From an uncultured Rubritalea sp. (GTDB lineage: Bacteria; Verrucomicrobiota; Verrucomicrobiia; Verrucomicrobiales; Akkermansiaceae): a DNA stretch of 64,000 nucleotides. Made by a program: the position numbers and the translations under genes. The stretch's first letter is position 1. Every line of letters begins with the position of its first letter. Of this stretch, positions 21,883 to 50,203 are shown in pieces. The DNA lies in NCBI GenBank assembly GCA_937132085.1, contig CAKZNV010000164.1, positions 1 through 64,000 on the forward strand, given 5' to 3'. The notes beneath the pieces are model-generated. The model was not told the origin of the DNA. It saw nothing but the letters and a program-made list of their open reading frames with translations, and did not search any database.

Positions 21883-23256
21883 ATGTCATTGAAAGCACTA
21901 CCATCAGTCGAAACTCTAGCCAATCAACTGAGTCAACATTGTCCCCTACCTAAACCACTTATTATCGGTTTTGTGCGACGTGAGATAGATCAATGGAGAA
22001 CTAAGCTACTCGCTGGTGAGACTCATGAGCGTGAAGAGATCGAAGCTGACATTTCTGGTAAACTAGAGCACTTCTCAGCATCTAGACTCCAACCAGTCAT
22101 CAATGGCACTGGCGTCCTTATTCATACTAACTTAGGACGCTCCCCATTAGGAAAAACCGCCGCCAATGCCCTGCAGCAAATCGCTACTGGCTACTCAAAT
22201 CTCGAATTCAACCTCCCGGAGGGAACTCGTGGCAAGCGTGCTGGCTATCTAGAAACTGCCCTAGCCTGTTTACTAGGAGCGGACTCAGCCACAGCGGTCA
22301 ATAACTGCGCCGCTGCACTCGTCATCATTCTACGTCACCTAGCCAATGGTGAGAAAAACGAAGTCATCGTCTCACGTGGTGAGCTGGTAGAAATAGGCGG
22401 AGGCTTCCGTATACCAGAAATTCTCGAAACCTCAGGAGCCAAACTCGTAGAAGTAGGTGCCACCAATAAAACGCACCTCAGCGACTACGCCAATGCCATC
22501 ACTCCGAACACCGCTCTCATCCTAAAAGTCCATCGCTCTAACTTCTACATTGGTGGATTCACCTCCGAACCAGAAGTAGCGGAACTCTCTGCATTAGCTA
22601 AAGAACACGACTTCCCACTAGTAGAAGACATCGGCTCAGGCGCTATGATGAATACAGATGAGCTAGCACCGATCGACCACGAACCTACTCCACAAGCTGC
22701 GCTCAGAAACGGGGTAGATCTCGTCTGCTTCTCTGGCGACAAACTCCTTGGTGGACCTCAATCTGGTATCATTGCTGGAAATTCTAAACTAGTGGCTGGC
22801 ATCAAGAATGAGCCATTCTTCAGAGCTGTCCGCTGTGATAAGCTCATCCTCACCGTGCTCCAGGAAAGCATCGATGAATACCTACGCACTCAAGCAGACC
22901 CTAGCAAAACAGACATCCCCACTCTGAGAAACCTCGCAGAGACAGTGGAGAACCTTCAAGCAAGAGCTGAAAAAATCCTCTCCGAGATAGGAACTCTTTC
23001 AAAAGCTGAAATCCAGATTATTTCCTCTACTGCTACTACAGGCGGTGGAACAATGCCTACTTCACAGATCCCATCGGTAGCACTAGCTCTAACGCCAACA
23101 GGGATTTCACTCAACAAGCTCTCCAAGAGCCTGCGCATCGGATCACCAGCGATCGTAGGCTACACAGAGAGTAATCGATTCTGCCTCGATCTTCGCACCA
23201 TTTTCCCATGGCAAGACGAGGCCATTAGCGCCACTTTGAAGCAACTTCTCGCTTAG
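21883..23256 (+). CDS. selA: L-seryl-tRNA(Sec) selenium transferase
   Basis: The 457-residue PLP enzyme converts Ser-tRNA(Sec) to Sec-tRNA(Sec) using selenophosphate. The family core is complete: GTGVLIHTNLGRSPLG (75-90), NCAAALVIIL (141-150) and SRGELVEIGGGFRIPEI (164-180). The PLP lysine is within SGDKLLGGPQSG (Lys about 287). Length fits bacterial SelA. No selB, selD, tRNA-Sec or obvious selenoprotein gene is next to it, so the rest of the pathway must lie elsewhere if it is functional. A small secreted-protein gene follows after 47 bases. Confidence 0.93.
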   Translation: MSLKALPSVETLANQLSQHCPLPKPLIIGFVRREIDQWRTKLLAGETHEREEIEADISGKLEHFSASRLQPVINGTGVLIHTNLGRSPLGKTAANALQQIATGYSNLEFNLPEGTRGKRAGYLETALACLLGADSATAVNNCAAALVIILRHLANGEKNEVIVSRGELVEIGGGFRIPEILETSGAKLVEVGATNKTHLSDYANAITPNTALILKVHRSNFYIGGFTSEPEVAELSALAKEHDFPLVEDIGSGAMMNTDELAPIDHEPTPQAALRNGVDLVCFSGDKLLGGPQSGIIAGNSKLVAGIKNEPFFRAVRCDKLILTVLQESIDEYLRTQADPSKTDIPTLRNLAETVENLQARAEKILSEIGTLSKAEIQIISSTATTGGGTMPTSQIPSVALALTPTGISLNKLSKSLRIGSPAIVGYTESNRFCLDLRTIFPWQDEAISATLKQLLA

Positions 23257-30455: not shown

Positions 30456-31295
30456 TTAGAGTAATGGCACTAACTGCTCATTACACCATTGACCGTTCTG
30501 GATGGTGACTACGTCTGGCTGAGTGACGGCAAGTTCGCACTCGTCTTCACAGATGATCCAGCCTTTGTAGTCTCTCTGAACAAGAAATTCTGTGATCTTG
30601 TGGAAATCCACTTTCCCCTCCCCCATCTGCGCCCAGGGTTCTGGGCCATTTCCTGAGTAGTCCTTGTAGTGAACGTGATTGATGAGGTGTTGCCATCTGG
30701 TCATGGTGCCGATGATATCCATGCCACCGCGGATGATGTGGCCTACGTCTGGAGTCCAGCCAGTAACGGATGGATCGAGCGAATTGAGCACCACATCGTA
30801 GTCATCCTGAGTCCGAACGAGTGATCCCGGAGGTGAGTTTGGGTGGAAAGAACAGGTCAGTCCTGCCTCAGCAGCTCTACGAGATACTCGGTTGACGTTG
30901 TTGACGAGGTTGAGTCTGCGCTGCTGCAGATTGTGCCTTCCATCTGGCAGTGGCACGGTGCCTAGGGCTGCACCTGGGAAATGCTTGAGCATCTCAATGG
31001 TCCAGTCTGCACAAGCTCTCTCGGATTCTGTTTCTTCTTCGCCATCCCATTTACAAATGAGAGCGAGTGCTGCGAGTTCGATGCCAGCTTCGTCGAGTGC
31101 ATCCTTGAGCTTAGCAGGGTCTTTGAAGTCGCCCAGCCAGTAGTCATCATAGGGCTCTAGCACCATTGGCTCGATGCCTCTGAAGCCAGCTTTTCCTGCT
31201 ACCTGAGCCATGTGGCCAAGCTTGTTTTTATTTCCCTCACCATGGTCGTCCATGAACCAGGTGTAAACTTCTGCGCCAAATTTTATATTATTCAT
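30456..31295 (-). CDS. Sugar phosphate isomerase/epimerase-like TIM-barrel protein
   Basis: The 279-residue protein fits the AP-endonuclease-2/xylose-isomerase-like barrel. Visible elements are FRGIEPMVLEP early, LTCSFHPNSPPGS with a metal-type His, the TGWTPDVGHIIRGGMD segment with Asp and His, HVHYKDYSGNG, and GWIICEDECE with the metal-binding Glu. Such enzymes isomerise or epimerise free or keto sugars, with a divalent metal. No signal peptide is present. It is the last gene of a four-gene operon beginning with the DUF1080-cytochrome fusion, 19 bases after a second barrel of the same superfamily. Confidence 0.82.
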   Translation of the reverse strand: MNNIKFGAEVYTWFMDDHGEGNKNKLGHMAQVAGKAGFRGIEPMVLEPYDDYWLGDFKDPAKLKDALDEAGIELAALALICKWDGEEETESERACADWTIEMLKHFPGAALGTVPLPDGRHNLQQRRLNLVNNVNRVSRRAAEAGLTCSFHPNSPPGSLVRTQDDYDVVLNSLDPSVTGWTPDVGHIIRGGMDIIGTMTRWQHLINHVHYKDYSGNGPEPWAQMGEGKVDFHKITEFLVQRDYKGWIICEDECELAVTQPDVVTIQNGQWCNEQLVPLL

Positions 31296-31314: not shown

Positions 31315-32316
31315 TTAAATTGCAGAACGCACCTTGAGCATTGTGTCTAGGATCGTGTTCCATGTTTTACTGTTTTCTAGGATATTGTTATCAAACATGC
31401 AGCCGTCCCAGCAGATGTGTTGAATATTGCGCTCCTCATGATCTTGCAACCACATCTGAGCACAACGCACGATGTCTAGTTTGCCATTAGGATCATCTGC
31501 TGGGCAGTGTTTTCCAGTCTTATCATGTGATCCAGAGCCGTGCACTGAGCCATCGTTCTGAGCGACGTGGAAATCGATCGTCCATGGGCGAAGCTGATCT
31601 GTTAGTATCTTATAAGCAGCCCAGAATTCTTCATCGCTATAGCCAGATTTGAGCAAGGTATGCTCAGGTGCATTATAGCCTAGGAGATACAAGTAAGTGT
31701 GTGATAAGTCAGCTTGGAAACCCACAGCTTCAGGCAGATTAGTCTCCTCAAGTGTATTTAGCATATGCTTCCATGAGTGCATTCCACCCCAGCATATTTC
31801 CCCTTCCGCTGCTAACTTCTCTCCGTGATCAGCAGCGATCATCCCAGCTTCTCTGAAGGTTTTCGCGAGGAGCTTGGTATTCGCTAGTTCATTGTCTGCG
31901 AAGTCTGTTGGTCCGCCAGCAGAGTCGATACGGATCACCCCATAATCTCGCACTCCGTGTTCGTTTAAAATCTTCGTGACCCTACATGCATGACGAATAG
32001 CGGTGAGGAAATCTCTTCTCTCACCAGATGAGCCAAATGCAGAGCCGCCAAGTGTCCCAGGCCAGATTGGAGCCACGACAGATCCCACCTTTAATCCATG
32101 TCGATTGATTTTATCAGCCAATGCCCTGATCTCATCATCAGAGGAAGAAGGATCGTGGTGTGGGTGATATAAGAATAAATCCACTCCGTCAAATTTCTGC
32201 CCATCGACTGACGCCTTTGCAGTGAATTCTAGCATTCTATCTAGCGAGATTGTAGGCTGGTCAGAGGCGTCATCTTTGCCAACAATTCCTGGCCACATTG
32301 CGTTATGTAATTTCAT
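31315..32316 (-). CDS. Sugar isomerase/epimerase-like TIM-barrel protein, divergent
   Basis: The 333-residue cytoplasmic protein reads as the same xylose-isomerase-like barrel superfamily as its downstream neighbour but is clearly different. Likely metal ligands are in [34 protein letters not shown], the [12 protein letters not shown] segment, and the final [12 protein letters not shown]. The cysteine-containing C-terminus is unusual. The adjacent barrel, AraC regulator and DUF1080 fusion suggest a step in sugar or keto-sugar catabolism. The precise reaction cannot be read from the sequence. Confidence 0.75.
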
Positions 32317-32336: not shown

Positions 32337-33062
32337 CTAAATGATGTAAAGTTTACGATATTTGAGTGGTGAGATGTTCATGGCTCTAGAGAATTGTCGG
32401 CTAAAATGACTTTGATCATAGAATCCGCACTCCCCTGCAATCGTTGCGAGATCATCGGTGCTCTGAGTCAGTAAATGACAAGCATGTTGCACCCTAGTGT
32501 TGAGGATGTAGCGTGATGGGCTGACATTAAAAATAGCTTTAAACTTACGCTCCAGCGCACTTATAGAAAGCGATGCTTGCTGAGCGAGGTCTTCAATGGT
32601 GAGTTTTTCTGCGAAATGCTTCTTGATGTAAGAGGTAATCTTATTGATTTCTGGACTAGACTCCATCGCTGTGTCGCTCGTCGAAAATGCACGTGTGATC
32701 CCAAGAATAACAACGACGTTCTGATTATCATCTAAGACAGGCACTTTCGTCGTAATCGACCAATCCACCAACCCATGATTAGAAGGAACAAGTTCAACCT
32801 TGTTGATGATAGGTTTCTTCGTTTCCAGGATAGCTTCATCATCTTTTCTAAATGCATCAGCCATCGAAACAGGTAAGAAATCATAATCAGTTTTACCGAT
32901 AATTTCATCCTCCGGCAAGTTCAGTTTCCTAGCTAACTGTTGATTAATTCTAACAAAACGAAAATCAGTATCTTTGACAAAGTAAATAAATCTCGGCATC
33001 TCATCGAAGAGAAGCTTCGCTGGATCAGGCATTTCTAAGAATGATTTCAAGTAGTCTTTCAT
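32337..33062 (-). CDS. PAS-domain AraC-family transcription regulator
   Basis: The 241-residue protein has a PAS domain at about 20-128 ([20 protein letters not shown] and [14 protein letters not shown]). An AraC/XylS double HTH follows at about 140-241 ([48 protein letters not shown]). The PAS type, with phrases like GKTDYDFLP, is shared with sensor proteins of this group. It sits inside the operon, 6 bases after the DUF1080 fusion gene and 20 before the isomerase. It probably controls this operon, perhaps through the palindromes at 36193-36296. Confidence 0.88.
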
Positions 33063-33068
33063 CGGCTA

Positions 33069-36000
33069 TTACTTAGGTTGAGTGGTCAGATAGAGCATTA
33101 GATCACGAAGTTCATCTGGGTTGAGCGAATTGATCAGTGAGGGCGGCATAGTAGAAATAGTCGATGCTGTTCGTTTCACTATACTAGATTTCAGAACAGG
33201 AGTCAGAACAGTAAGATCAAAGGCACTAGCAGCGATGTGAACATGAGCCTCGTCTTCTTTCATGATCTTGCCCTGCATTGTCGCTCCATCTTTGAGTTGG
33301 AATACCGTGGTAGTGTATTGGTCTGAAATTACTTCTGAGGGATCAATGATCGCCTTAAGAACGTCTTTCTTTTCAAAGCGATTTACTAGATTAGTAAGAT
33401 CTGGTCCTGAACTTCCGCCTTCTTTAGAGTGGGTGTGACAACGTGCACAGAGTGTGGCTTGGAACATGTGCTTACCATTGACGATATCAGCTTTTGACAG
33501 ATCCTTTACTGCCTCAGTTGCCTCTTCTAAAGTCCATGCTCTTCCTGGTCCTTTTGCCATGACCATTGGTTTGGCAGTTGTATCTATCTTTGATGACTCT
33601 TTAGCGATGACTAGTAATTCTGGCTTAAGGTTCTTCATTGCTTCAGATCGGATTTTCTTAATGAATCCCTTATAGCTATTTCCACCGCTTTTCATTTCTG
33701 CTGAAGCTAGCCATTTATAATATGCTCGCACTGTTGCCTCATCCCATCCCAGTTTGTGGTTTTTAAGCATGAGAGCATAGTGAAGCGCCTGAGAATCAGG
33801 CTGGTTTTTCAGCATATTTTTAAAGTCTTTAGCATACTTAGTATTCCCAATAAGTAGGTCCTGTGGGATGTCTTCCTTAATTGCTACTGAACTTTGCATG
33901 AGAAAGATCGTCTTCTTGAGAACTTGAGCTGACTCTAGGTAAACGAGCACTCGGCATAGCTCTCTGTTCAGAGTTGAGCTAGCACTCGGGTATTGTGAAT
34001 CTAACTTCTTTAAAAGCTCAGATTGAATCGTATCTACTGGCTTACCAGTGCGGATGCTTGCTAGTGAGATGGCTCTTAGATATTCTAATTTTTGAGCTTC
34101 ATTGAGTTGCTTGAAATCGATCTCTAACAGCTTACTGAAGATGATTTTAGCACCTGCTCCATTCCTAGAAAGAGCCAGACTAGCTGTGATGATATGCTGA
34201 GGACTTCCAGCCATTTGATAATGCTTCACCCACTTGTTTATATCAAGACGCTCAAGTGAAATTCTAGCGGCATATCTCAGCATACGATCATCGCTACCTA
34301 GTTCATTCCAGAGTGCCTCTACATCAGTAGATTTTTGAATATGTTTCAGCTTTTCCTGAGCATCACTGATAGCAGGAGTAGCCACGGAAGTAGTGTCAGC
34401 ATTTCCAGTATAGCTTACACGATACACCCCAGACTTCAGTCTTCTACCGCCAGTAGTGAAATACATCGCACCATCTGGACCAATGGCTGCATCAGTCACT
34501 GGTAGAGGTCTACCACTAACAAATATTTCTTTCTTAGCTGAGTAAGTAGTTTCATCTGGAGAGAGATGCAGAGCATAGATTTTTCCAAACGTCCAATCTA
34601 GGATGAACAATGCCTTTTGATACTTAGCTGGGAATTTAGCACCCGTGCCAAATAGAACACCCGTAGGACAACCAGGGCCTATATCGATAACTGAACCTAA
34701 ACTATCTGCATAATACTCTGGCCACTTCGCGGTGCCTGTGCGCCAGCCATATTCAGCACCTTTTACGAGATGAAGCACACGAGTAGGTCGATACCAAGGA
34801 GTGCCAATATCCCACTCCATATCAGAATCATAACCGAAAATGCTGCCTGTTGGGCTTGCCGCAATGTCGTAGGTATTTCTCATTCCAGTTGCTATGATCT
34901 CTCTTTTCTTACCATCAGCAGAGAGCTTGATTAGCGTTCCGCCTGGAGCCTTGATGCCAACAGCATGGCCACTCGCATCGTTGAAATGTGGGTGAAGTGT
35001 GTCTTCCGCCCAGTTTTTATTGAAGCTAGTCACCGCATCTTTAGGTGGGTGCGTATGATTACCTACGATGAGATAAATGCCGTCACCATCTGGTGATTTC
35101 ATCAGTCCATGAGTGCCGTGCTCACCACCACCTCTGATAGGTAGTATGAACTCTCTTTTATCAAACTTCCCATCATTGTTCGTGTCTGTTAGACGGTGAA
35201 CTCCAGCACTGCCTTTTTTATCTGAAGTCACGTAGAGGCTGCCGTATGCCCAGCATAAACCCTGAGCGTGCCCCATGTTATCGACGCGTTCTTTAGAAGA
35301 TATTTGACCATCTTTTAAGGTGATTTTGAAAAGGCTACCATATTGATCACTGGTATAGAGAAAGCCTTTGTCGTCAAAGCAAATGGAAACCCATGAACCT
35401 TCCGTCTTTTTATCGACAGAATAGATCTTTTCGATACTGAATCCATCAGCCACTGTGAGTGAGTCTTTCACTGGCTTCTCAATAGAGTCAGCTAATTCTA
35501 ACATTTTAATGTCTTTATACTGCACCGTCATTGGTGGTCCAGCATGAAGCTGTAATGCTAATAAGCCTTTAACTGCGCTACGGTTTGTCTCATTATCTTC
35601 TACTCGAATGGTGGTGAATCCGTTGATCTGGTGCATCAGCGTGTTTCCATCAGCAACGACTCTATAAGAGTTCCATTTACCCTTTTGAATAGACGCCGAC
35701 ACTTTATCTGCATCTTTAATTGGCTTAGGAGAGACTGTCTTTTTACCACTCGGGCTAATTTGTATATTCTGCCCACGCTTGGCAACGATCCCTCTGCCAT
35801 CTTGCTCGTAAAGAATACCGCTGTAATTTGCGCCAGTTTCCATATCGGCTTGATAGCCCTTGATAGTAAATTTCTCCTTATTCTGCCACTGACTACGGTA
35901 TTGGACTCCACCATTTCCAGTATCTGTTAGAAATCTAAAGGATAGGTTTAACTCAAAATTAGCAAACTGCTTTTTTGTATAAGTAAGATAAGTCGTCTGC

Positions 36001-36167
36001 TTACATGGCGACTCAGCGGTTGACTTACCTGTGATGGCTCCGTCTTCGATTGACCAATAACGTTTATCGCCCTCCCAGCCATCAAGAGTCTTACCATCAA
36101 ATAAGCTAATAGTATCAGCCTGCAGGGTAAGACTGAGGATACTGCTGAATATAAGGAAATGTCTCAT
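33069..36167 (-). CDS. DUF1080 / beta-propeller dehydrogenase / cytochrome c fusion
   Basis: The 1032-residue secreted protein has a signal peptide at 1-17. A DUF1080 (3-keto-disaccharide hydrolase) domain spans about 18-225 (SLFDGKTLDGWEGDKRYWSI, the NGGVQYRSQ strand). A six-bladed sugar-dehydrogenase-like propeller of the PVC membrane-bound type lies at about 230-600 (GYDSDMEWDIGTPWYRPTRV, IGPDGAMYFTTGGR). HEAT-like helices fill about 610-860. A c-type heme domain at about 890-1032 has CARCH near residue 907 and SSGPDLTNL after it. It may oxidise a sugar, pass electrons to heme and hydrolyse the keto-glycoside in one polypeptide; that combination is inference. It heads a four-gene operon. 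Confidence 0.88.
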   Translation of the reverse strand: MRHFLIFSSILSLTLQADTISLFDGKTLDGWEGDKRYWSIEDGAITGKSTAESPCKQTTYLTYTKKQFANFELNLSFRFLTDTGNGGVQYRSQWQNKEKFTIKGYQADMETGANYSGILYEQDGRGIVAKRGQNIQISPSGKKTVSPKPIKDADKVSASIQKGKWNSYRVVADGNTLMHQINGFTTIRVEDNETNRSAVKGLLALQLHAGPPMTVQYKDIKMLELADSIEKPVKDSLTVADGFSIEKIYSVDKKTEGSWVSICFDDKGFLYTSDQYGSLFKITLKDGQISSKERVDNMGHAQGLCWAYGSLYVTSDKKGSAGVHRLTDTNNDGKFDKREFILPIRGGGEHGTHGLMKSPDGDGIYLIVGNHTHPPKDAVTSFNKNWAEDTLHPHFNDASGHAVGIKAPGGTLIKLSADGKKREIIATGMRNTYDIAASPTGSIFGYDSDMEWDIGTPWYRPTRVLHLVKGAEYGWRTGTAKWPEYYADSLGSVIDIGPGCPTGVLFGTGAKFPAKYQKALFILDWTFGKIYALHLSPDETTYSAKKEIFVSGRPLPVTDAAIGPDGAMYFTTGGRRLKSGVYRVSYTGNADTTSVATPAISDAQEKLKHIQKSTDVEALWNELGSDDRMLRYAARISLERLDINKWVKHYQMAGSPQHIITASLALSRNGAGAKIIFSKLLEIDFKQLNEAQKLEYLRAISLASIRTGKPVDTIQSELLKKLDSQYPSASSTLNRELCRVLVYLESAQVLKKTIFLMQSSVAIKEDIPQDLLIGNTKYAKDFKNMLKNQPDSQALHYALMLKNHKLGWDEATVRAYYKWLASAEMKSGGNSYKGFIKKIRSEAMKNLKPELLVIAKESSKIDTTAKPMVMAKGPGRAWTLEEATEAVKDLSKADIVNGKHMFQATLCARCHTHSKEGGSSGPDLTNLVNRFEKKDVLKAIIDPSEVISDQYTTTVFQLKDGATMQGKIMKEDEAHVHIAASAFDLTVLTPVLKSSIVKRTASTISTMPPSLINSLNPDELRDLMLYLTTQPK

Positions 36168-36387: not shown

Positions 36388-37581
36388 ATGAATACATACT
36401 TTGAAACACTTGGGCGCACAGTCTTGGAACGCTGGCAACAGCAGAATTTCTCGCTTGAGGTCTTTCCAGAGCTTACTCGGATAGCTATGGATGAAAATCC
36501 GCCGTCTGAAAACGTAGATCTAGAGGAGATGATTCATGAATTCCTATCTAATGATCAACAGCCTCTTCAGGGGCATTCTGGATTTGGTCAGCCGGAGTTA
36601 GTGGCTTATACTGATCCGCGTTTTTACATTCAGATCCTCTTCTGGATGGAAGGAACCACCGATATCCACCAGCACGAATTCTCAGGAGCATTCCACGTCA
36701 TGCAAGGATCCAGTGTTCATTCCCAATTCAATTTCGTAAACGCCAAGTCAGTCACTCCCCATCTACGTGTAGGAGATCTCAAGCTAAAGCAGATCGATCT
36801 ATTAGAAACTGGTCGCACCGTTCCCATCACCTCTGGCAAAGCATGCATCCACTCACTCTTCCATCTCGATACGCCCTCCGTCACCGTAGTCGTCCGCACT
36901 CAGCACGATCCCGGCACTGGACCGCAGTATAATTACCTGCCTCCTCACATGGCGGTCGATCCAATTCATGCTGATTCACTAACGATGCGCCGCAAGCAGC
37001 TACTCGATGTTCTAGAAAACCTAGACCACCCCAACTACACATCACATGTTAGGGAAATGATTGATAGCCTAGATTTCGAACGAGGTTTCCACACTCTGCA
37101 CCATACCATGGATCGCCTCATGGCACTCGGGGAGTGGGAATCTGTTCTTGAGGCATTTCAGAATAAGCACGGTGAACTTGCGAAGGGAGTGCCCGCTACT
37201 TTAGCTGAATATCTTCGTAGGGAATACATCACCCAAATGCGCTACCAGATCGAGAACCCAGAACATCGCTTTTTCTTGGCGCTACTGATGAACGTCCAGA
37301 ATCGCAAAGACATCTACTCTCTCATCAGCGAGCGATATCCAGACAACTCACCGACCGATATGATCCTAAGCTGGGCTCAAGAATTGATAGATCGTGCAGA
37401 TTTTGGTCTCACACTTCTTGATGCTGCATTCCCTGAATCCATTGAGGCGGACCTTGATACACAGTTTGATCTACTCATGAATGGACTTTATAATGCGCTA
37501 GAGGGCAACACAATTTCAGAAGATCAAGCCGAGGTCCATACATCCATCACCAACTCCTGCCTAAGTCCCCTGTTCTCATAG
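36388..37581 (+). CDS. Cupin-like protein of unknown function
   Basis: The 397-residue cytoplasmic protein is not a family I recognise. Its first half (about 65-200) reads as a cupin: IHQHEFSGAFHVMQGSSVHS contains a His-x-His pair and the turn glycine, and a later CIHSLFHLDTPSVTVVVRTQ could supply the second motif. The second half is helical (repeated Leu/Arg/Glu-rich stretches). Cupins of this layout bind a metal and act as dioxygenases or small-molecule sensors. It is divergent from the DUF1080-cytochrome operon and shares its palindromic control region, so a role in the same process is possible. Confidence 0.6.
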   Translation: MNTYFETLGRTVLERWQQQNFSLEVFPELTRIAMDENPPSENVDLEEMIHEFLSNDQQPLQGHSGFGQPELVAYTDPRFYIQILFWMEGTTDIHQHEFSGAFHVMQGSSVHSQFNFVNAKSVTPHLRVGDLKLKQIDLLETGRTVPITSGKACIHSLFHLDTPSVTVVVRTQHDPGTGPQYNYLPPHMAVDPIHADSLTMRRKQLLDVLENLDHPNYTSHVREMIDSLDFERGFHTLHHTMDRLMALGEWESVLEAFQNKHGELAKGVPATLAEYLRREYITQMRYQIENPEHRFFLALLMNVQNRKDIYSLISERYPDNSPTDMILSWAQELIDRADFGLTLLDAAFPESIEADLDTQFDLLMNGLYNALEGNTISEDQAEVHTSITNSCLSPLFS

Positions 37582-40662: not shown

Positions 40663-41931
40663 ATGAAAATCACATCACTGACTACACTACTCTGCATAAG
40701 CTGTATAACAGCCCCGTTAGCTAATGCAGGCAACGAATTCACCTCTCTTTTCAATGGTAAAGACCTCACTGGTTGGACTGGCTCAGGCTATGAAGTCAAG
40801 GACGGAGCCATCGTCTGCACACCTAAAGGCAAGAACCTCGTTACTAAGAAGTCTTATAATGATTACGTCTTTAACTTCGAATTCAAACTACCAGCTGGTG
40901 GAAATAACGGAGTCGGTATTAATTACCCAGGACAGGGAGATCCGGCTTATACAGGTTTAGAGCTTCAAGTGCTCGACGACACTGCTCCTAAGTATAAAGA
41001 TCTAAAACCTCATCAATTTCACGGTGGCATCTATTTCTTCAAGGCTGCTAAGAAAGGTCATCTCAAACCAGTCGGTGAATGGAACAAAGAAACGATCACT
41101 GTCAGCGGTAATCATGTCAAAATAGAGCTTAATGGCGTAGTCATCAACGAAGGTAACCTAGATGAGCTACAGAAGCAGAACGCCAAGCACACTGGTGTAA
41201 AGCGCCGCTCAGGTCACATCACATTCTGTGGACATGGTGATGCAGTCGCATACAGAAATATCTCTATCAAGGAAATCAACCTGCCGAAAGTAGACCTTAC
41301 AGGCTTTACTTCTCTCTATAATGGTAAAGACCTCAGTGGATGGAAACAAGACCCTGGACATATCGGTCACTGGCAGCCTCGTGGTGAGAGCCTTTTCTAC
41401 GATAGTAAATCAACCGCTAAGGAAAAGAACCTCTGGACTGAAAAGAGCTACAAAGATTTCACTCTAGCAGTGGACTGGCGCTGGGCTGGTCACGCTACTA
41501 GAAGACTAGACAGACCATTCCTAGACCCGAAGACTGGCGGAACCATGCTAGACAAAGATGGCAAGCCAATGACTAAGAACGTGATCGAACTCGATAGTGG
41601 AATTTACCTTCGTGGCAACAACCGTTCACAAGTAAACCTCTGGAACTGGCCATGTGGATCAGGCGAAGTCTACGGCTACAGAATGAATGGCAAACTATCC
41701 CAAGAAATCCGTGCGGCTCTAGTCCCTAAAGTGAATGCAGACCACCCTATCGGAGCATGGAACCGCATCATCATTACGATGAAAGGTGATCGTCTAACAG
41801 TCGTTCTTAACGGAGAAACAGTCATCGAAAACGCTCAACTCCCAGGAGTTCCAGCAGAAGGCCCTATCGCTCTTCAGCACCACGGATCAGAACTTGAATT
41901 CCGTAACATCGCTATCAAAGAGCTCAAGTAA
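40663..41931 (+). CDS. Secreted protein with two DUF1080 (3-keto-disaccharide hydrolase) domains
   Basis: The 422-residue protein has a signal peptide at 1-22 (ending PLANAG). Two DUF1080 domains follow: one at about 25-205 starting EFTSLFNGKDLTGWTGSG, and one at about 215-422 starting FTSLYNGKDLSGWKQD. Both keep the opening FxSLxNGKDLxGW and the late FCGHGDAVAYRNISIKE or QHHGSELEFRNIAIKE strand. The family hydrolyses 3-keto-glycosides in the periplasm. It opens a run of genes including ApbE, an MFS transporter and a Gfo/Idh oxidoreductase. The tandem domains may bind different substrate parts; that is inference. Confidence 0.88.
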   Translation: MKITSLTTLLCISCITAPLANAGNEFTSLFNGKDLTGWTGSGYEVKDGAIVCTPKGKNLVTKKSYNDYVFNFEFKLPAGGNNGVGINYPGQGDPAYTGLELQVLDDTAPKYKDLKPHQFHGGIYFFKAAKKGHLKPVGEWNKETITVSGNHVKIELNGVVINEGNLDELQKQNAKHTGVKRRSGHITFCGHGDAVAYRNISIKEINLPKVDLTGFTSLYNGKDLSGWKQDPGHIGHWQPRGESLFYDSKSTAKEKNLWTEKSYKDFTLAVDWRWAGHATRRLDRPFLDPKTGGTMLDKDGKPMTKNVIELDSGIYLRGNNRSQVNLWNWPCGSGEVYGYRMNGKLSQEIRAALVPKVNADHPIGAWNRIIITMKGDRLTVVLNGETVIENAQLPGVPAEGPIALQHHGSELEFRNIAIKELK

Positions 41932-41939
41932 CCCCTTAA

Positions 41940-42041
41940 AATAACACGAGGAGAACATTCATTAAGAACACAATAGCTGTGTCAGCTCTCGGAATACCGA
42001 ACATCGTAAAAGTAGCCTACCGACTCATCCCTTCCACTTGA
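41940..42041 (+). pseudogene. Remnant of a Tat-exported protein gene (Gfo/Idh or isomerase type)
   Basis: Just after the DUF1080 gene, frame 41940-42041 reads NNTRRTFIKNTIAVSALG, then IPNIVKVAYRLIPST and a stop. TRRTFIKN is an exact twin-arginine signal motif, and ALGIPNIV is typical of Tat signals on verrucomicrobial Gfo/Idh and sugar-isomerase proteins. There is no start codon (the frame has a stop at 41937-41939) and only ~34 codons remain, so the gene has lost its start and nearly all of its body. A Gfo/Idh gene downstream (44514) lacks such a signal and may have taken over the role. Confidence 0.65.
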
Positions 42042-42106
42042 TGAGCACTCGATACTTGTCTTGAAAATGACTACACTGCTGGCACAACTAAAGAACCAAC
42101 CGCTTA

Positions 42107-43153
42107 ATGACCTATACCTCTAGAGCTACTTTTCTGCTATTCATTCTACTTGTTTCCTGCAAGCCAGAATCATCGACTGAGAATGTCGAAGTAGAAAAGA
42201 CTAGCAACTCCCCTGCTCCAGCTGCTGAAAATCGCTATCATTTCTCCCAACCTGTCATGGGCACTACGTTTCAGATTACTTGTTATTCTGAGAATGAAAG
42301 CAAAGCCCGAACCGCCGCATTTGAGGCATTTCAGCTAGCCAAGGAAATAGAGCTAGTCTGCTCCGACTATACCAGTAAGAGCGAAATAAATCGCGTGCTC
42401 AATACCCCTAGATCACTCACAGTCTCTGACACATTGGCAGAAGTTCTCGGTTTTGCTCTCATCATGGCAAAAGAAACTGAGGGCGCATTCGACCCAACCA
42501 TTGGCCACCATACTTACAACTGGCGCCGAGCGAAGGCCAAACAGAAACTTCCAGACCAAGAGACTACCGATAAAGCTAAATCACTCACAGGATGGCAGAA
42601 AATCTGGCTTAGCGGAGACAATGTTCTGCATCGGTCATCAGACAATCTAAGAGTAGACCTAGGAGGAATCGCCAAAGGCTACGCTGCTGACAAAATGCTA
42701 GCCCTCATCAAAAATCACGGCATCCCCTCTGCTATGATAGCCGCTGGCGGTGATGTGCGCCTAGGTGATGCCCCACCTGAATCTGATGGTTGGAAAGTCG
42801 GCATCAAGAACCTCACTACATCGACGGCTCCAGCAAACAAACTACCATACGTCATCCTAAAAAACTGTGCTATATCCACATCTGGCGACCTTCACCAGTA
42901 TATTGAAATCGACGGAACTCGCTATTCTCACATCGTAAACCCAACCACAGGCTTAGGCCTAACTCGTAGAGTCTCTGCAACAGTAATTGCCCCAACCGCA
43001 ATCCAGTCCGACACCCTAGCGACTGCCAGCTGCGTTTCCCAAGAATACGCCAACAAACTCCTCTCAAAAAAGACCAAGATAAAACTTCTATTAGCAGAAA
43101 AAAATAGCCAAACTAACTCAACAAATTTCCCAACAATCCACCAACAACCATGA
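42107..43153 (+). CDS. apbE: FAD:protein FMN transferase, lipoprotein
   Basis: The 348-residue protein starts with a lipoprotein signal (LFILLVSC; Cys near residue 18). ApbE family motifs are visible: PVMGTTFQITCY, DLGGIAKGYAADKMLALI with the metal/FAD-binding region, AGGDVRLG, and ISTSGDLHQYIEIDG followed by YSHIVNPTTGLG. ApbE attaches FMN covalently to Thr of target proteins or hydrolyses FAD in the periplasm. It overlaps the MFS gene by 4 bases (ATGA), so the two are translated together. No flavin-modified RnfG/NqrC target is in the window. Confidence 0.92.
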   Translation: MTYTSRATFLLFILLVSCKPESSTENVEVEKTSNSPAPAAENRYHFSQPVMGTTFQITCYSENESKARTAAFEAFQLAKEIELVCSDYTSKSEINRVLNTPRSLTVSDTLAEVLGFALIMAKETEGAFDPTIGHHTYNWRRAKAKQKLPDQETTDKAKSLTGWQKIWLSGDNVLHRSSDNLRVDLGGIAKGYAADKMLALIKNHGIPSAMIAAGGDVRLGDAPPESDGWKVGIKNLTTSTAPANKLPYVILKNCAISTSGDLHQYIEIDGTRYSHIVNPTTGLGLTRRVSATVIAPTAIQSDTLATASCVSQEYANKLLSKKTKIKLLLAEKNSQTNSTNFPTIHQQP

Positions 43154-44469
43154 ATACTCAGACTAAAACTGCTCCAGGCATTATACCGAAACTCTCTATT
43201 ATGATGTTTCTCCAATTTTTTATATGGGGAGCATGGTATGTAGCGTTATGGAATTTTTTACAATCAAAAGGCATGACAACCGCTGGCGCTGGAGGATCAT
43301 ACGATGCAGCAGCTTACACCGTTGCTCCAATTGCAGCTATCCTAGCTCCACTTACCTTAGGTTTAATTGCTGATCGTTTCATAAACACAGAGAAAATGCT
43401 CTCAATACTCTTTTTGTTAGGAGCAGCTCTCTTGTATTGGGCTCCTAGCCTAGCTGAAGCAGGATCGCCTACCACCCTTATGGAGCAGTTTAGTCACCCA
43501 ATGATCCTCTGTCTATTGGCGTATATGCTCTGTTTTATGCCTACCCTAGGTCTTACAGCTAGTCTGTCTTTCAAACACCTAACTAACCCTGAGAAACAAT
43601 TCCCCATCGTGCGAGTCATGGGGACTATTGGTTGGATAGCAGGTAACTGGGCTATGTGGGGATGTCGCTCAGCAGGTCTAGATCCTATTAAGTTTTCAGA
43701 TAACTCAGCTCATATTTTCACCGCGGCAGCCATCGCATCTGCAGTTCTCGGTATCTTCTGTCTCTTCCTCCCTAAAACAGCTCCGGTATCTAAAGGTAAG
43801 AAAATCTCAATCGGAGAAGTATTTGGTATCGAGGCGTGGGGCTTACTAAAGAATAGAAACTTCTTCATCTTTGCTCTCTGTAGTTTCCTTATCTGTATAC
43901 CGCTAGCTGGATACTACGCCAGAGGTGCAGGATTCGTTTCAGAGATGGGCGTCACCCTCTTTGGTTCAACTACTGGAGCTATGAGCACAGGTCAAATGTC
44001 CGAGATTCTCTTCATGATCATCATGCCTGTTTGCTTTGCTCGTTTAGGAGTAAAGTGGATGTTAACTATCGGTATGGCCGCATGGGTAGCTAGATATGGC
44101 CTATGGGGATTTGCATTCGGTCAAGAAGGCCCATTACTAACACTTCCTATTTTCATCGGAATCCTACTACACGGAATATGCTATGACTTTTTCTTCGTCA
44201 CAGGTATGATTTACACTGATAAAAAGGCAACACCAGCAATCCGAAGCCAAGCTCAATCACTCATCGTAATGCTAACTCAGGGACTAGGTCTAGGTATTGG
44301 AGCTCAGCTCTTTGGACGTTGGGCTGCTAGCTGCACAACTGATGGCAAGGTAGATTTTGCTCGATTCTGGTATATCCCCGCTTTATTCGCCCTCGCTGTG
44401 CTTATTTTGTTCGTTCTCACATTCTGGGAAAAAGCAAAAGCTAAGTCAGACACAGACTCAGCTGCTTAA
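43150..44469 (+). CDS. MFS transporter of the nucleoside:H+ symporter type
   Basis: The 439-residue protein has about 12 hydrophobic spans, starting KLSIMMFLQFFIWGAWYVAL as in the NupG/XapB-like nucleoside symporter family. LGLIADRF after span 2 is the MFS cytoplasmic loop motif, and FPIVRVMGTIGWIAGN in span 5 is typical for this family. In Verrucomicrobia and Planctomycetes such genes often lie in sugar-catabolism clusters, and the substrate may be a sugar rather than a nucleoside. It overlaps apbE and is followed after 44 bases by a Gfo/Idh gene. Confidence 0.85.
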   Translation: MNTQTKTAPGIIPKLSIMMFLQFFIWGAWYVALWNFLQSKGMTTAGAGGSYDAAAYTVAPIAAILAPLTLGLIADRFINTEKMLSILFLLGAALLYWAPSLAEAGSPTTLMEQFSHPMILCLLAYMLCFMPTLGLTASLSFKHLTNPEKQFPIVRVMGTIGWIAGNWAMWGCRSAGLDPIKFSDNSAHIFTAAAIASAVLGIFCLFLPKTAPVSKGKKISIGEVFGIEAWGLLKNRNFFIFALCSFLICIPLAGYYARGAGFVSEMGVTLFGSTTGAMSTGQMSEILFMIIMPVCFARLGVKWMLTIGMAAWVARYGLWGFAFGQEGPLLTLPIFIGILLHGICYDFFFVTGMIYTDKKATPAIRSQAQSLIVMLTQGLGLGIGAQLFGRWAASCTTDGKVDFARFWYIPALFALAVLILFVLTFWEKAKAKSDTDSAA

Positions 44470-44513
44470 TCTATCACTAATCTCAAATCTATAACCTTAA
44501 CTAAATAACAACT

Positions 44514-45581
44514 ATGCCTACTATACTTTGCGTTGGCGCAGGAAACATGGGTCGCTCTCATGCTCTTGCTTACCACAACATCCCTGAATTTGATATCGCC
44601 GGAATCGTAACTCGCTCAGCGGGATCTCGTGAGAAGCTCAATGAAGAACTCGGAGGCGGCTACGACCTCTTCGATGATTTCTATAAAGCTCTCGAAGAAA
44701 CTAAGCCAGACGCCGTTTCTATCTCTACCTATCCAGACACTCACGCTCCATTCGCTAAAGCAGCATTCGCCGCTGGCTGTGATGTGTTCATTGAGAAACC
44801 ACTCGCTGAAACTGTCGAAGAGGCTGAGGAAATCGTAGAATCAGCGAAGCAACACGGCAAAAAACTCGTGATTGGCTACATTCTCCGTCACCACCCATCT
44901 TGGCAGAAATTCATCGAAATGTCACATGAGCTAGGTAAGCCACTCGTGATGCGAATGAACCTAAACCAGCAATCATCTGGCGACATGTGGAACACCCACA
45001 TGAACCTCATGTCCTCTATCTCACCGATCGTTGACTGTGGCGTCCACTACGTAGACGTGATGTGCCAGATGACTCGCTCTAAGCCAATCCGCGTTGCAGG
45101 TCTCGGTGCTCGTCTTTCTGACGAACTACCTGAAGATAAGATCAACTACGGCCACCTCCAAGTCACCTTCGAGGACGGATCAGTAGGTTGGTATGAAGCT
45201 GGCTGGGGACCAATGATGTCTGAGACAGCATTCTTCGTAAAAGACGTGGTCGGTCCAAAAGGCTGTGTCACTATCGAAGCGAAAGATGCTGGAGCTGAAG
45301 GCCAGTCAGATAATGTCGATGCCCACACCAAGACAAACACTCTCCGCAGACACTTCTCTGAGCTCGATGAAAACAACCAGTTCGTCAAAAAGGATGAATG
45401 GGTAGAAACTGGTGATGAGCCAGACCACGATGGCCTCTGCCACCGTGAACAAGAGTTCTTCCTCAAGGCTATCCAAGATGACGAAGACTTGACTGACCAC
45501 ATGGAAGATGCGATTAATTCAATGAAGATAGTTGCAGCTGCCGATAAATCATTTAGAACAGGTGAAATCGTCAACCTGTAA
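44514..45581 (+). CDS. Gfo/Idh/MocA-family oxidoreductase
   Basis: The 355-residue cytoplasmic enzyme has an N-terminal Rossmann motif VGAGNMGRSHALAYH (about 6-20). The EKPLAETVEEAEE segment (about 101-113) holds the catalytic-domain Lys, and SPIVDCGVHYVDVMCQ carries the family's Asp/His pair. The C-terminal part is acidic. Family members oxidise or reduce sugar hydroxyls with NAD(P), commonly at C3 in DUF1080-linked clusters. It has no Tat signal, unlike many verrucomicrobial relatives; a Tat remnant lies upstream at 41940. A tiny lipoprotein gene follows. Confidence 0.88.
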   Translation: MPTILCVGAGNMGRSHALAYHNIPEFDIAGIVTRSAGSREKLNEELGGGYDLFDDFYKALEETKPDAVSISTYPDTHAPFAKAAFAAGCDVFIEKPLAETVEEAEEIVESAKQHGKKLVIGYILRHHPSWQKFIEMSHELGKPLVMRMNLNQQSSGDMWNTHMNLMSSISPIVDCGVHYVDVMCQMTRSKPIRVAGLGARLSDELPEDKINYGHLQVTFEDGSVGWYEAGWGPMMSETAFFVKDVVGPKGCVTIEAKDAGAEGQSDNVDAHTKTNTLRRHFSELDENNQFVKKDEWVETGDEPDHDGLCHREQEFFLKAIQDDEDLTDHMEDAINSMKIVAAADKSFRTGEIVNL

Positions 45582-48523: not shown

Positions 48524-50203
48524 ATGGCCAGCAACTCTATCTCAATCGAACCGAAGTCTTTTATAAGAAGAATCTTGTTCTTCACCATTCTCATCGGCAT
48601 CGCTATCGTCTATATCGGATTCACATTTAGGGGCTTAACATCTCCTTTCGGCATGGACCAAGCGCAGATCGGCAGAGAAGTCGCTCGTGGCCATAACCTT
48701 ACTACTAAAAGCATCCGACCGCTAGCAATTCACCAGCTACAGGATAGAGAAGTAGCATTTAGTTTGAACAGCTTCCATGACACGACTCATGCGCCTCTCA
48801 ATATTTTATTCTATGCCGGTGCTATTAAAATCTTCGGTGGCGATGTAGAGGCTAACAACAAGATGTCGGCTAACCAGAATGTCTTCTACCTTGACCGAGT
48901 CATAGCGGGAACATGCGCCCTATTTTTCATCATCGCTATTGGTATTAACTACTTATTGGTCACTCGAATCTTCGATGCCAAAATCGGTGCAATCGTAGCA
49001 ATACTCATGATGCTTAGTCAGAGTATGTGGAATTACACACTCTCTGGCCTACCTCAAATGCTCATGCTCTGTATATTCTCAGGAGCGTGTTATCTGATTT
49101 GGAAAGCGATAGAGAACCAGAATGCAGAGCGCTCAGCTGTGGCTCCAGTAATCTTGGCAGGCTTTCTGTTCGGCCTATTAGCCTTAGCTCACTGGCTCAC
49201 ACTCTGGATCTTTGTAGGTTTCTTAGTGTTTGCAATCATTCATTTCCGCCCACGTGGAATCATCGCCATTTTCCTAGTTGTAACAGTGCTATTCTTCATC
49301 GCTGGACCTCTGATCTTCAACGCGAACAATAGTGATGGAGCTCTAGGAACTGCGTTCTACTTCGTCCAAGGAAAGACAGGTATTGACCAGGACAACATGT
49401 TCCGCACCCTTGAAGAGCCAGTATTCAATATGAACGGAATCATCCTCAACATTGTTCAAACTACATTCCTTCAGACAAATGAGATTCACAGACACCTAGG
49501 AGGCTTCGTGCTTGCAACTGCGTTCTTCCTTTCACTAATGCACCCATTCAAGCGCAGCACTATCTGTAGCTATCGTTGGTGTATTTTCTCAATGTGGGGC
49601 TTTGCCGCTTTTGGAATGTCTGTCTACGGCATTAGCAATAGCCCAATTGACCCGAATCAGATGCATATTCTGTTCATGCCTCTAATGTCAGCTTTCGCAT
49701 TAGCTCTCATCAGTATCCTATGGGCTCGTATCCCACTTAGCCAATATGAAGGAGTCGCTAAGAACCTCCCATTCATCATCATTATCATTATCACTGCTAG
49801 CCCTATCACCATCAATTTCATTAACGAGGTCAGAAATTCTCAATATAGAAATACAGTCCCAGGCTACAATGCTAATAACAATAACCGACTTCTAACTGAC
49901 GAGGTCAAACCCAATGACATCGTATTCTCAGATCAGCCATGGGCTGTAGCATGGTATGCTGATAGAGTTGCGATCTGGACTCCTAAAGATTCTGAAAGCA
50001 TGACCAAGATTATGGACATCGCTAAACAGACAAACGGCAATATCATTGGTCTTCACAGAACCCCATTCCTCGGTCAAATCTCAGGAAATGCTGATGTCAT
50101 TGTGGATAAAAACTTCCCTAATTTCATTCCACTCATGACTCCTAACTCTAAAAGAGCATCGGGCTTCGTTCTATTTTCTAAAAATAAACCTAGTGCTAAC
50201 TAA
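48524..50203 (+). CDS. GT-C-type polytopic membrane glycosyltransferase-like protein
   Basis: The 559-residue protein has about ten hydrophobic spans, beginning RILFFTILIGIAIVYIGF, and a large soluble C-terminal part. The first extracytoplasmic loop has SPFGMDQAQIGREVARG, matching the position of the catalytic acidic residue in ArnT/PMT-type (GT39) enzymes. These move a sugar from a polyprenyl-phosphate donor to lipid or protein in the periplasm. The donor and acceptor are unknown. It lies 5 bases upstream of xseB, so they may share a transcript, although no functional link is obvious. Confidence 0.7.
   Translation: MASNSISIEPKSFIRRILFFTILIGIAIVYIGFTFRGLTSPFGMDQAQIGREVARGHNLTTKSIRPLAIHQLQDREVAFSLNSFHDTTHAPLNILFYAGAIKIFGGDVEANNKMSANQNVFYLDRVIAGTCALFFIIAIGINYLLVTRIFDAKIGAIVAILMMLSQSMWNYTLSGLPQMLMLCIFSGACYLIWKAIENQNAERSAVAPVILAGFLFGLLALAHWLTLWIFVGFLVFAIIHFRPRGIIAIFLVVTVLFFIAGPLIFNANNSDGALGTAFYFVQGKTGIDQDNMFRTLEEPVFNMNGIILNIVQTTFLQTNEIHRHLGGFVLATAFFLSLMHPFKRSTICSYRWCIFSMWGFAAFGMSVYGISNSPIDPNQMHILFMPLMSAFALALISILWARIPLSQYEGVAKNLPFIIIIIITASPITINFINEVRNSQYRNTVPGYNANNNNRLLTDEVKPNDIVFSDQPWAVAWYADRVAIWTPKDSESMTKIMDIAKQTNGNIIGLHRTPFLGQISGNADVIVDKNFPNFIPLMTPNSKRASGFVLFSKNKPSAN

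Follow-up and report, generated by a model that had tools for sequence, protein, structure and literature searches.

How much of a glycoside-oxidising pathway can be held in a single polypeptide? The question is raised by one gene in the window, the whole 64,000-nucleotide stretch of DNA analysed here. A first-pass annotation had read this gene as a 3-keto-glycoside hydrolase (DUF1080), a sugar-dehydrogenase propeller and a cytochrome c in one chain, which could oxidise a glycoside at C3, deliver the electrons to heme and cleave the product without release, as a self-contained route.

The fusion protein and its operon

The open reading frame starts with ATG, has no internal stop and encodes 1032 aa, with coordinates identical to those given previously. 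Its parts are as follows.

33069..36167, minus strand: DUF1080-propeller-helical-cytochrome c fusion, 1032 aa (orthologs L082, L083, L084)
36117..36167, minus strand: probable signal peptide, residues 1-17 (MRHFLIFSSILSLTLQA), a short hydrophobic N-terminus (ortholog L084: AFA|DE)
35505..36113, minus strand: PF06439/DUF1080 domain, residues 19-221, of the 'NSGxxYRS...GYQxD...QxHxGPxM' subfamily (profile match)
34392..35462, minus strand: GSDH-like propeller, residues 236-592 (fold and profile-profile comparison; H350 equivalent to sGDH H144, R430-N431 to R228-N229)
35118..35120, minus strand: codon of H350, counterpart of the soluble glucose dehydrogenase catalytic base, invariant in 69/69 aligned sequences
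33588..34370, minus strand: all-helical HEAT-like middle region, residues ~600-860 (AlphaFold2 secondary structure)
33081..33491, minus strand: TIGR02603 cytochrome c domain, residues 893-1029 (profile match; cupredoxin instead in the Roseibacillus clade)
33435..33449, minus strand: heme motif C907-A-R-C910-H911 (CxxCH), from sequence
33147..33149, minus strand: M1007, probable heme axial ligand, aligned with Kustd1711 M292, the residue altered in PDB 7zs1/7zs2

Profile matches, fold and the CxxCH motif bore out the presence of the three modules on one polypeptide with an export-like N-terminus. PF06439 matched residues 19-221 with E 2e-36 (126.2 bits against a gathering cut-off of 26.8). Cytochrom_C matched residues 896-973 and the TIGR02603 'putative heme-binding domain' residues 893-1029 (93.8, cut-off 68.15); C907/C910/H911 and the distal M1007 agree with this assignment. 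As judged by its sequence, the protein is probably exported and extracytoplasmic. Residues ~600-860 were modelled by AlphaFold2 as helices throughout, mostly with pLDDT >90, and HEAT_2 scores were below cut-off for this region of the relative L096. The structure model of the whole fusion had a pTM of 0.68. Both this fourth region and the operon had been overlooked previously.

The fusion is the first gene of a tight four-gene operon, with gaps of 6, 20 and 19 bp. A further cluster is found on the other strand.

32337..33062, minus strand: PAS-AraC transcriptional regulator following the fusion after 6 bp, conserved in relative genome G005
31315..32316, minus strand: TIM1, xylose-isomerase-like TIM barrel with invariant E173, D203, H206, H250 and D304
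30456..31295, minus strand: TIM2, IolE-like TIM barrel with the probable metal quartet H151-D183-H209-E250
40663..45581, plus strand: tandem DUF1080 protein, ApbE, a Nuc_H_symport-family transporter and a Gfo/Idh/MocA oxidoreductase, which may form another cluster of this pathway

The operon is kept in G005 and, minus the regulator, in G003. No signal peptide was seen in TIM1 or TIM2, which their sequences suggest are probably cytoplasmic; with two more enzymes of this kind encoded in the operon, the route can hardly be called self-contained. TIM1 gave no match against PDB, either as a single sequence or as a profile. The oxidase candidate, DUF1080 and the two TIM barrels lie inside the operon, where no reductase was found; a Gfo/Idh gene lies ~8 kb from the fusion, in a separate cluster. 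The 40663-45581 cluster was rejected as part of the operon, being on the other strand with IleRS between. Its membership of the pathway is uncertain because the other genomes examined do not have it next to the fusion.

Fused, split and exchanged parts in relatives

The fusion is neither an artefact nor due to chance, since three congeneric genomes carry it with 53-67% identity. It is not unique to the window genome either: Verrucomicrobial relatives have it too. A full fusion in Bacteroidota was rejected, the 'full-length' matches being two adjacent genes. In this phylum DUF1080 is a free-standing protein whose gene adjoins the propeller gene, usually near a TIM1-type barrel; Chitinophaga pinensis is one cultured species with such a split pair. 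The suggested cleavage without product release found no support, and the Bacteroidota counterparts are separate proteins.

DUF1080 and propeller formed a single gene in 21 loci and neighbouring same-strand genes in 25, counts that are biased upward by a sample picked with a DUF1080-containing query. The fused state switches at least four times on the tree, and the partnership seen in the window recurs across phyla as fusion or gene adjacency. TIM1 homologs, 54-60% identical, were present in 19 of the 25 split loci compared to 2 of the 55 loci where no DUF1080 was found. Split loci with TIM1 often also contain Gfo/Idh, as do Bacteroidota loci; the window genome contains no close homolog of the Bacteroidota Gfo/Idh enzyme.

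The C-terminal domain is also subject to exchange. In the Verrucomicrobial Roseibacillus clade, cytochrome c gives way to a cupredoxin whose type-1 copper ligands (His-Cys-His-Met) are complete; the same swap is present in further genomes, and every fused form examined retains one carrier, heme or copper. This exchange identifies the C-terminus as an electron carrier, in line with the delivery of electrons to heme proposed initially, and argues strongly for a propeller that would act as a redox enzyme handing electrons to it. Because relatives either encode the parts in two adjoining genes or have a copper domain in place of the heme, the parts of the fusion very probably work together. Both its architecture and its redox coupling are thereby supported.

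That the propeller itself is a glycosidase, the cytochrome having another role, appears most improbable given its dehydrogenase-type fold, its catalytic His and a carrier which is swappable and yet always kept in the fused forms examined. What speaks for a glycosidase comes from a protein made in E. coli BL21(DE3)pLysS, a strain that carries lacZ. This protein, Lac161_ORF7 (verrucomicrobial TIGR02604-HEAT-cytochrome c), was reported to free glucose from lactose with a Km of 1.8 mM and a kcat of 13.2 per s; it was purified from that strain, 3/3 unrelated ORFs tested positive and, as the authors remark, the Km is similar to that of LacZ (PMC5342196). We counted this glucose release, reported with no mention of an electron acceptor, against an oxidative mechanism.

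Residues kept and lost in the propeller and DUF1080 domains

Since searching PDB with the propeller profile gave no significant sequence match, fold and profile-profile comparison were used. The propeller-only model retrieved 2ism, 3a9g, 1cq1, 1c9u and AA12 at the top of the list, sugar dehydrogenases first, and hhalign aligned the propeller with PF07995 proteins at 98.9% (E 1.5e-17). The PQQ sugar-dehydrogenase (GSDH) fold is therefore well supported, at scores below the family cut-offs (20.6 against 25 bits for Pfam GSDH; 59.1 against 122.2, about half, for TIGR02604, where close relatives likewise score 50-80).

The initial proposal was to fall if catalytic residues were lost from either domain, and the outcome was mixed. 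The propeller kept the catalytic His and Arg-Asn pair of sGDH, invariant in all 69 aligned sequences. The residues holding PQQ in sGDH were absent at the aligned positions (K377 to T526, R406 to P556, R408 to T558), which are variable also among the PF07995 proteins of the alignment. The DUF1080 motifs were kept in part. No PqqC was found in the window genome by profile search, whereas 5/195 phylum members exceeded the cut-off as positive control. PqqE, over cut-off in none of 58 relatives, was dropped as a PQQ marker for lack of specificity, its matches below the cut-off being generic radical SAM proteins. PQQ scavenging would be compatible with missing synthesis.

The lost PQQ contacts and missing PQQ genes, together with HHIP among the top fold matches, could also suit a scaffold without enzymatic activity, the role of the same fold in HHIP. 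We consider this very improbable in view of the carrier swap and of the invariant polar residues, which include H350, R430, N431, D447-D453, R463, D524, D559 and R575.

Propeller-fold dehydrogenases known so far act mainly at C1, and we know of no propeller of GSDH fold that oxidises C3. This, along with the three lost PQQ-holding residues, weakens the C3 oxidation first ascribed to the propeller. It could instead be an aldose (C1) dehydrogenase with a heme acceptor, as in PQQ sugar dehydrogenases and AA12, to which a CBM66-like DUF1080 module would bring the substrate, a possible though rather unlikely arrangement. Consistent with it, CBM66 structures fit the N-terminus better (target TM 0.70-0.75) than longer DUF1080 proteins do (0.47-0.61), and in the relative L013 DUF1080 is exchanged for a sandwich weakly resembling rhamnosidase/GH2 sugar-binding domains. 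Motifs of characterised PF06439 proteins are also only partly kept: GGD, PEYQVLDNDNHPDAK and QDHGDxVWFRN of the BT2157 subfamily were not found on alignment, the GGD, PE and HPDAK residues are absent, and the correspondence is confined to N-(S/G)-G, YQ, a single Asp, Q206 and H208. On the other hand, the subfamily has its own invariant polar set (N85, Y90, R91, Q106, D108, Y120, R125, H179, N182, Q206; H208 nearly so), beyond the expected need of a simple binding module, DUF1080 stands free in Bacteroidota and keto-sugar-type TIM barrels adjoin in the operon.

The label 'hydrolase' did not fare well, as the solved BT2157 entries (PDB 8tda, 9fbe, 8rr2) are titled 3-keto-glycoside eliminase/hydratase and several residues that this subfamily conserves are missing from the fusion's domain. 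The solved sequence nearest to the latter by profile, BT3469 (4jqt), is functionally uncharacterised. The PF06439 name does not fix the reaction, because THTE_1561 is a reported endo-glucanase/xanthanase (PMC10881899).

In the window genome, PF06439 has 18 matches and the fusion query no more than 2, so that most DUF1080 proteins must obtain their substrate otherwise. Cleavage might then precede oxidation: another enzyme such as Gfo/Idh would oxidise C3, DUF1080 would cleave the 3-keto-glycoside and the propeller would oxidise the 3-keto sugar thus set free, or some other aldehyde. The mainly C1 activity of known propeller dehydrogenases would suit this order, as would the Gfo/Idh/MocA and tandem DUF1080 genes 4-9 kb off and the Gfo/Idh genes of Bacteroidota loci. 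We hold it to be distinctly unlikely, since the fused DUF1080 looks exported whereas the Gfo/Idh proteins carry no such indication.

A possible pathway and its nearest known counterparts

The explanation that we consider best, if tentatively and at slightly less than even confidence, is an extracytoplasmic sugar/glycoside dehydrogenase with a built-in electron acceptor, in a 3-keto-type pathway modelled on the known oxidation-elimination-hydration-reduction route. The propeller would oxidise a sugar hydroxyl and electrons would pass through the C-terminal c-type heme to respiration. DUF1080 would act either on this substrate or on the keto product formed from it; its most likely reaction is 1,2-elimination and/or hydration of a 3-keto-glycoside, in preference to direct hydrolysis. 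A small keto sugar may then be taken up into the cytoplasm, where the TIM1 and TIM2 metalloenzymes would convert it further. The need for another oxidase was counted in favour, no LacA-type GMC oxidoreductase being found in the window genome despite the 18 PF06439 matches. Counted against were the lost sGDH PQQ contacts, PqqC and PqqE not being found, the missing BT2157 motifs, the CBM66 likeness and the NAD-dependent Gfo/Idh enzymes in the window, which could form 3-keto sugars instead.

To our knowledge, the many paralogous propeller-heme proteins of Verrucomicrobia and Planctomycetes have no agreed function. The DUF1080 partner, fusion or adjacency, TIM barrels and heme/copper swap suggest a concrete one for one branch, respiratory sugar/glycoside oxidation coupled to bond cleavage. 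Should the first step prove to be C3 oxidation, non-hydrolytic glycoside breakdown would have a third chemistry besides flavin GMC and NAD-dependent Gfo/Idh enzymes. We regard as unlikely a new class of heme/copper-coupled glycoside 3-dehydrogenases in which a GSDH-fold propeller without the usual PQQ use oxidises C3 of intact glycosides, the electrons are taken up by a fused carrier that can be cytochrome c or type-1 copper interchangeably, and the fused DUF1080 cleaves the product. If such a class exists, some members of the large and so far unexplained PVC CxxCH protein family would gain a function.

Members of that family (TIGR02604, HEAT and TIGR02603, e.g. Lac161_ORF7), also from Verrucomicrobia/Planctomycetes and extensively paralogous, share the propeller, helical region and C-terminal heme c with the fusion, whose TIGR02604 score is half of the cut-off. 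Lac161_ORF7 differs in its three described domains without DUF1080 and in a reported activity of beta-galactosidase, not oxidation (PMC5342196). BT2157 and Caulobacter CCNA_01705 have the Pfam family and fold of the fusion's DUF1080, which belongs to another subfamily than BT2157 (GYQxD, QxHxGPxM; no GGD, PE(Y)Q or HPDAK). CCNA_01705 works next to a glycoside oxidase, and in Caulobacter lactose use DUF1080 genes act with glycoside 3-dehydrogenases (PMC9007349). PQQ sugar dehydrogenases (sGDH 1c9u, Asd 2g8s, 3a9g, 3das) share the fold and the sGDH His144 and Arg228-Asn229 equivalents; the fusion differs by the Lys377/Arg406/Arg408 equivalents it lacks, the absence of PQQ synthesis found in its genome and the added DUF1080. 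AA12 pyranose dehydrogenase likewise joins propeller and cytochrome (PMC6881789), b-type in AA12 and c-type in the fusion.

Two TIM-barrel enzymes of the 'sugar phosphate isomerase/epimerase' type with an oxidase are also found in LgdA/B1/B2/C, where two TIM barrels and oxidoreductases run the levoglucosan route (PMC7676230), and with AtOGE (PMC10628242). The first oxidation is NAD- or flavin-dependent in these routes, whereas that of the fusion would be extracytoplasmic, heme-linked and on a propeller, with no reductase in the operon. The TIM2 quartet is close in set and spacing to the AtOGE ligands H132-D163-H189-E233 (PMC10628242), and N153 occupies the place of the AtOGE catalytic His134.

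Domain layout and exchange of the electron carrier

The open reading frame proposed by the first-pass annotation is present exactly at 33069-36167 (- strand, 1032 aa; hereafter the fusion). Pfam and NCBIfam scans placed two of its domains over curated cut-offs:

residues 19-221: 3keto-disac_hyd domain (PF06439/DUF1080)
residues 893-1029: heme-binding cytochrome c domain

Over the propeller no model reached its cut-off (TIGR02604, 59 vs 122; GSDH, 20.6 vs 25). The AlphaFold2 model of the fusion, built on a 38-sequence alignment (mean pLDDT 88.6), predicts a helical region between propeller and cytochrome. Modelled alone, the propeller gave a pLDDT of 86.7 and a pTM of 0.89, and sugar dehydrogenases ranked first in a Foldseek comparison with the PDB (2ism, 3a9g, 1cq1, 1c9u, AA12), HHIP and 3das coming next. 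A short hydrophobic stretch at the start is compatible with a signal peptide.

The cytochrome residues C907, C910, H911 and M1007 are conserved, and M1007 aligns with M292 of a Kuenenia diheme protein, a residue altered by mutation in 7zs1 and 7zs2. A Roseibacillus-type clade includes nine fused proteins that have no CxxCH (L002, L003, L005-L010, L088). Scans of two of them, L005 and L009, identified a C-terminal cupredoxin (PF00127 exceeded its cut-off, the azurin model did not). Four of the nine carry the full set of type-1 copper ligands (HN..., C-T-Y-P-G-H-x-x-M), as do eight other propeller proteins from the order:

L005:1863-4943, L009:6989-10069, L002, L088, L166-L173: DUF1080-propeller or propeller proteins with cupredoxin in place of cytochrome c

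Since cytochrome c and cupredoxin share little beyond one-electron transfer, this swap is in our view the best evidence for a redox role of the propeller, with the C-terminus as electron acceptor. The first-pass annotation proposed that the fusion could oxidise a glycoside at C3, pass electrons to heme and cleave the product without release. This interpretation is partly supported: its redox coupling is now better founded, through a swap absent from its argument, while C3 specificity, cleavage by the DUF1080 domain and product channelling are putative. Cupredoxin domains of this type also occur in many ORFs of ~950-1500 aa across the order.

Putative active sites of the propeller and DUF1080 domains

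With PF07995 proteins as a bridge, hhalign gave a probability of 98.9% for a match between the propeller and the GSDH family. H350 stands where soluble glucose dehydrogenase (sGDH) has its catalytic His144, and R430-N431 where it has Arg228-Asn229; none of these residues varies among 69 aligned sequences. The PQQ-holding residues of sGDH, Lys377, Arg406 and Arg408, are replaced by T526, P556 and T558. PqqC had no match in the window genome, in a search that put 5 of 195 phylum genomes over cut-off. PQQ is therefore only a candidate cofactor: it might be scavenged, held in another way or not used at all. The genome has no match to GMC oxidoreductases either, so nothing in it points to a flavin-dependent glycoside 3-dehydrogenase of the LacA type, and the 3-keto step would fall to the propeller or to Gfo/Idh enzymes. 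Such a choice supports, without proving, a part of the propeller in C3 oxidation.

The catalytic alignment proposed at first pass thus held for the propeller His and Arg-Asn, not for the PQQ-holding residues, and only partly for DUF1080. Compared with the solved protein BT2157 and its kin, the latter keeps N-(S/G)-G, a YQ pair, an Asp and Q206-x-H208; the GGD, PE and HPDAK residues are absent. Across the 15 sequences of its own subfamily, 25 columns, many of them polar, are invariant; among solved structures, sequence profiles place 4jqt closest to it. Foldseek hits to the N-terminus of the full model included BT2157 entries, titled 3-keto-2-hydroxy-glucal-hydratase and 3-keto-glycoside eliminase/hydratase, among DUF1080 structures, and also CBM66. 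Catalysis by the domain is plausible, with a CBM66-like binding role as its strongest rival. Members of PF06439, which has 18 matches in the window genome, are reported as 3-keto-glycoside eliminase/hydratase, probable 3-ketolactose hydrolase (PMC9007349) and endo-glucanase (PMC10881899).

The only biochemistry found in the literature for propeller-HEAT-cytochrome proteins of this kind concerns Lac161_ORF7 from a verrucomicrobial cosmid, described as a lactose-cleaving enzyme with a Km of 1.8 mM (PMC5342196). The protein had been produced in BL21(DE3)pLysS and purified from it, with glucose release as the assay (PMC5342196); we suspect contamination by host LacZ.

Fused and split relatives

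Scanning 84,980 species genomes, together with 58 relatives, yielded about 100 loci, near relatives among them not being independent: 21 fused, 25 with a propeller-cytochrome gene adjoining a separate same-strand DUF1080 gene, and 55 without detected DUF1080, fractions biased because the query included DUF1080 and only the best 80 loci were retained. Bacteroidota and Balneolota pairs are split in every case; the fused loci belong to Verrucomicrobia and one Isosphaeraceae. Mapped on a propeller tree, these three states require 16 changes; when strongly supported branches alone are counted, the fused state must still have changed at least 4 times. An architecture this widespread is not new in itself; the novelty is the function to which it points for a large orphan family. 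In L013:6410-9445, a related propeller-cytochrome protein, the N-terminus weakly resembles rhamnosidase/GH2 sugar-binding sandwiches and not DUF1080, a case of N-terminal module swapping.

Gene neighbourhood and the putative route

The fusion opens a co-directional set (gaps of 6, 20 and 19 bp) continued by a PAS-AraC regulator and two TIM barrels:

31315-32316, - strand: TIM1, xylose-isomerase-like
30456-31295, - strand: TIM2, IolE-like

This order recurs in genome G005 and, without AraC, in G003, both in other genomic contexts with a PhoH gene upstream; G006 has the fusion without TIM barrels. In G005 a dihydroxyacetone kinase gene (Dak1-Dak2, L101:12895-14724) overlaps the TIM2 end, hinting at a short-chain keto product there. 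The ortholog in the congener G004 (L105:9529-12146) is a broken copy, with several in-frame stops and a reading frame in pieces, through gene decay or sequencing error.

TIM1 homologs (54-60% identity) occur in 19 of the 25 split loci vs 2 of the 55 without detected DUF1080, commonly accompanied by DUF4432, Gfo/Idh and a ~403-aa protein. The last, conserved in Bacteroidota loci (L021:9237-10448, L066:13117-14328; MSLAKxALEQGEGILRLTPTWVPRSFCVPGRRIKLHPDDYY), had no Pfam match when scanned on L021.

An established levoglucosan route of four enzymes includes two of TIM-barrel type (PMC7676230). In TIM2, H151-D183-H209-E250, aligned with IolE, show spacing similar to the ligands H132-D163-H189-E233 of the TIM-barrel eliminase AtOGE (PMC10628242), whereas N153 stands where AtOGE has its catalytic His134; a hydratase or epimerase would therefore suit TIM2 better than an eliminase. 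Since no signal peptide was seen by eye in TIM1 or TIM2, the putative route would have to pass through the inner membrane.

A further cluster, whose neighbourhood is not conserved in the other genomes compared, may be a second keto-sugar locus:

40663-45581, + strand: tandem DUF1080 protein, ApbE flavin transferase, Nuc_H_symport-family transporter, Gfo/Idh/MocA

Elsewhere in the window, 48524-50203 (+, 559 aa) and 36388-37581 (+, 397 aa) are ORFs without Pfam matches, and SelA (L-seryl-tRNA selenium transferase; 21883-23256, +) may indicate selenocysteine use by the organism.
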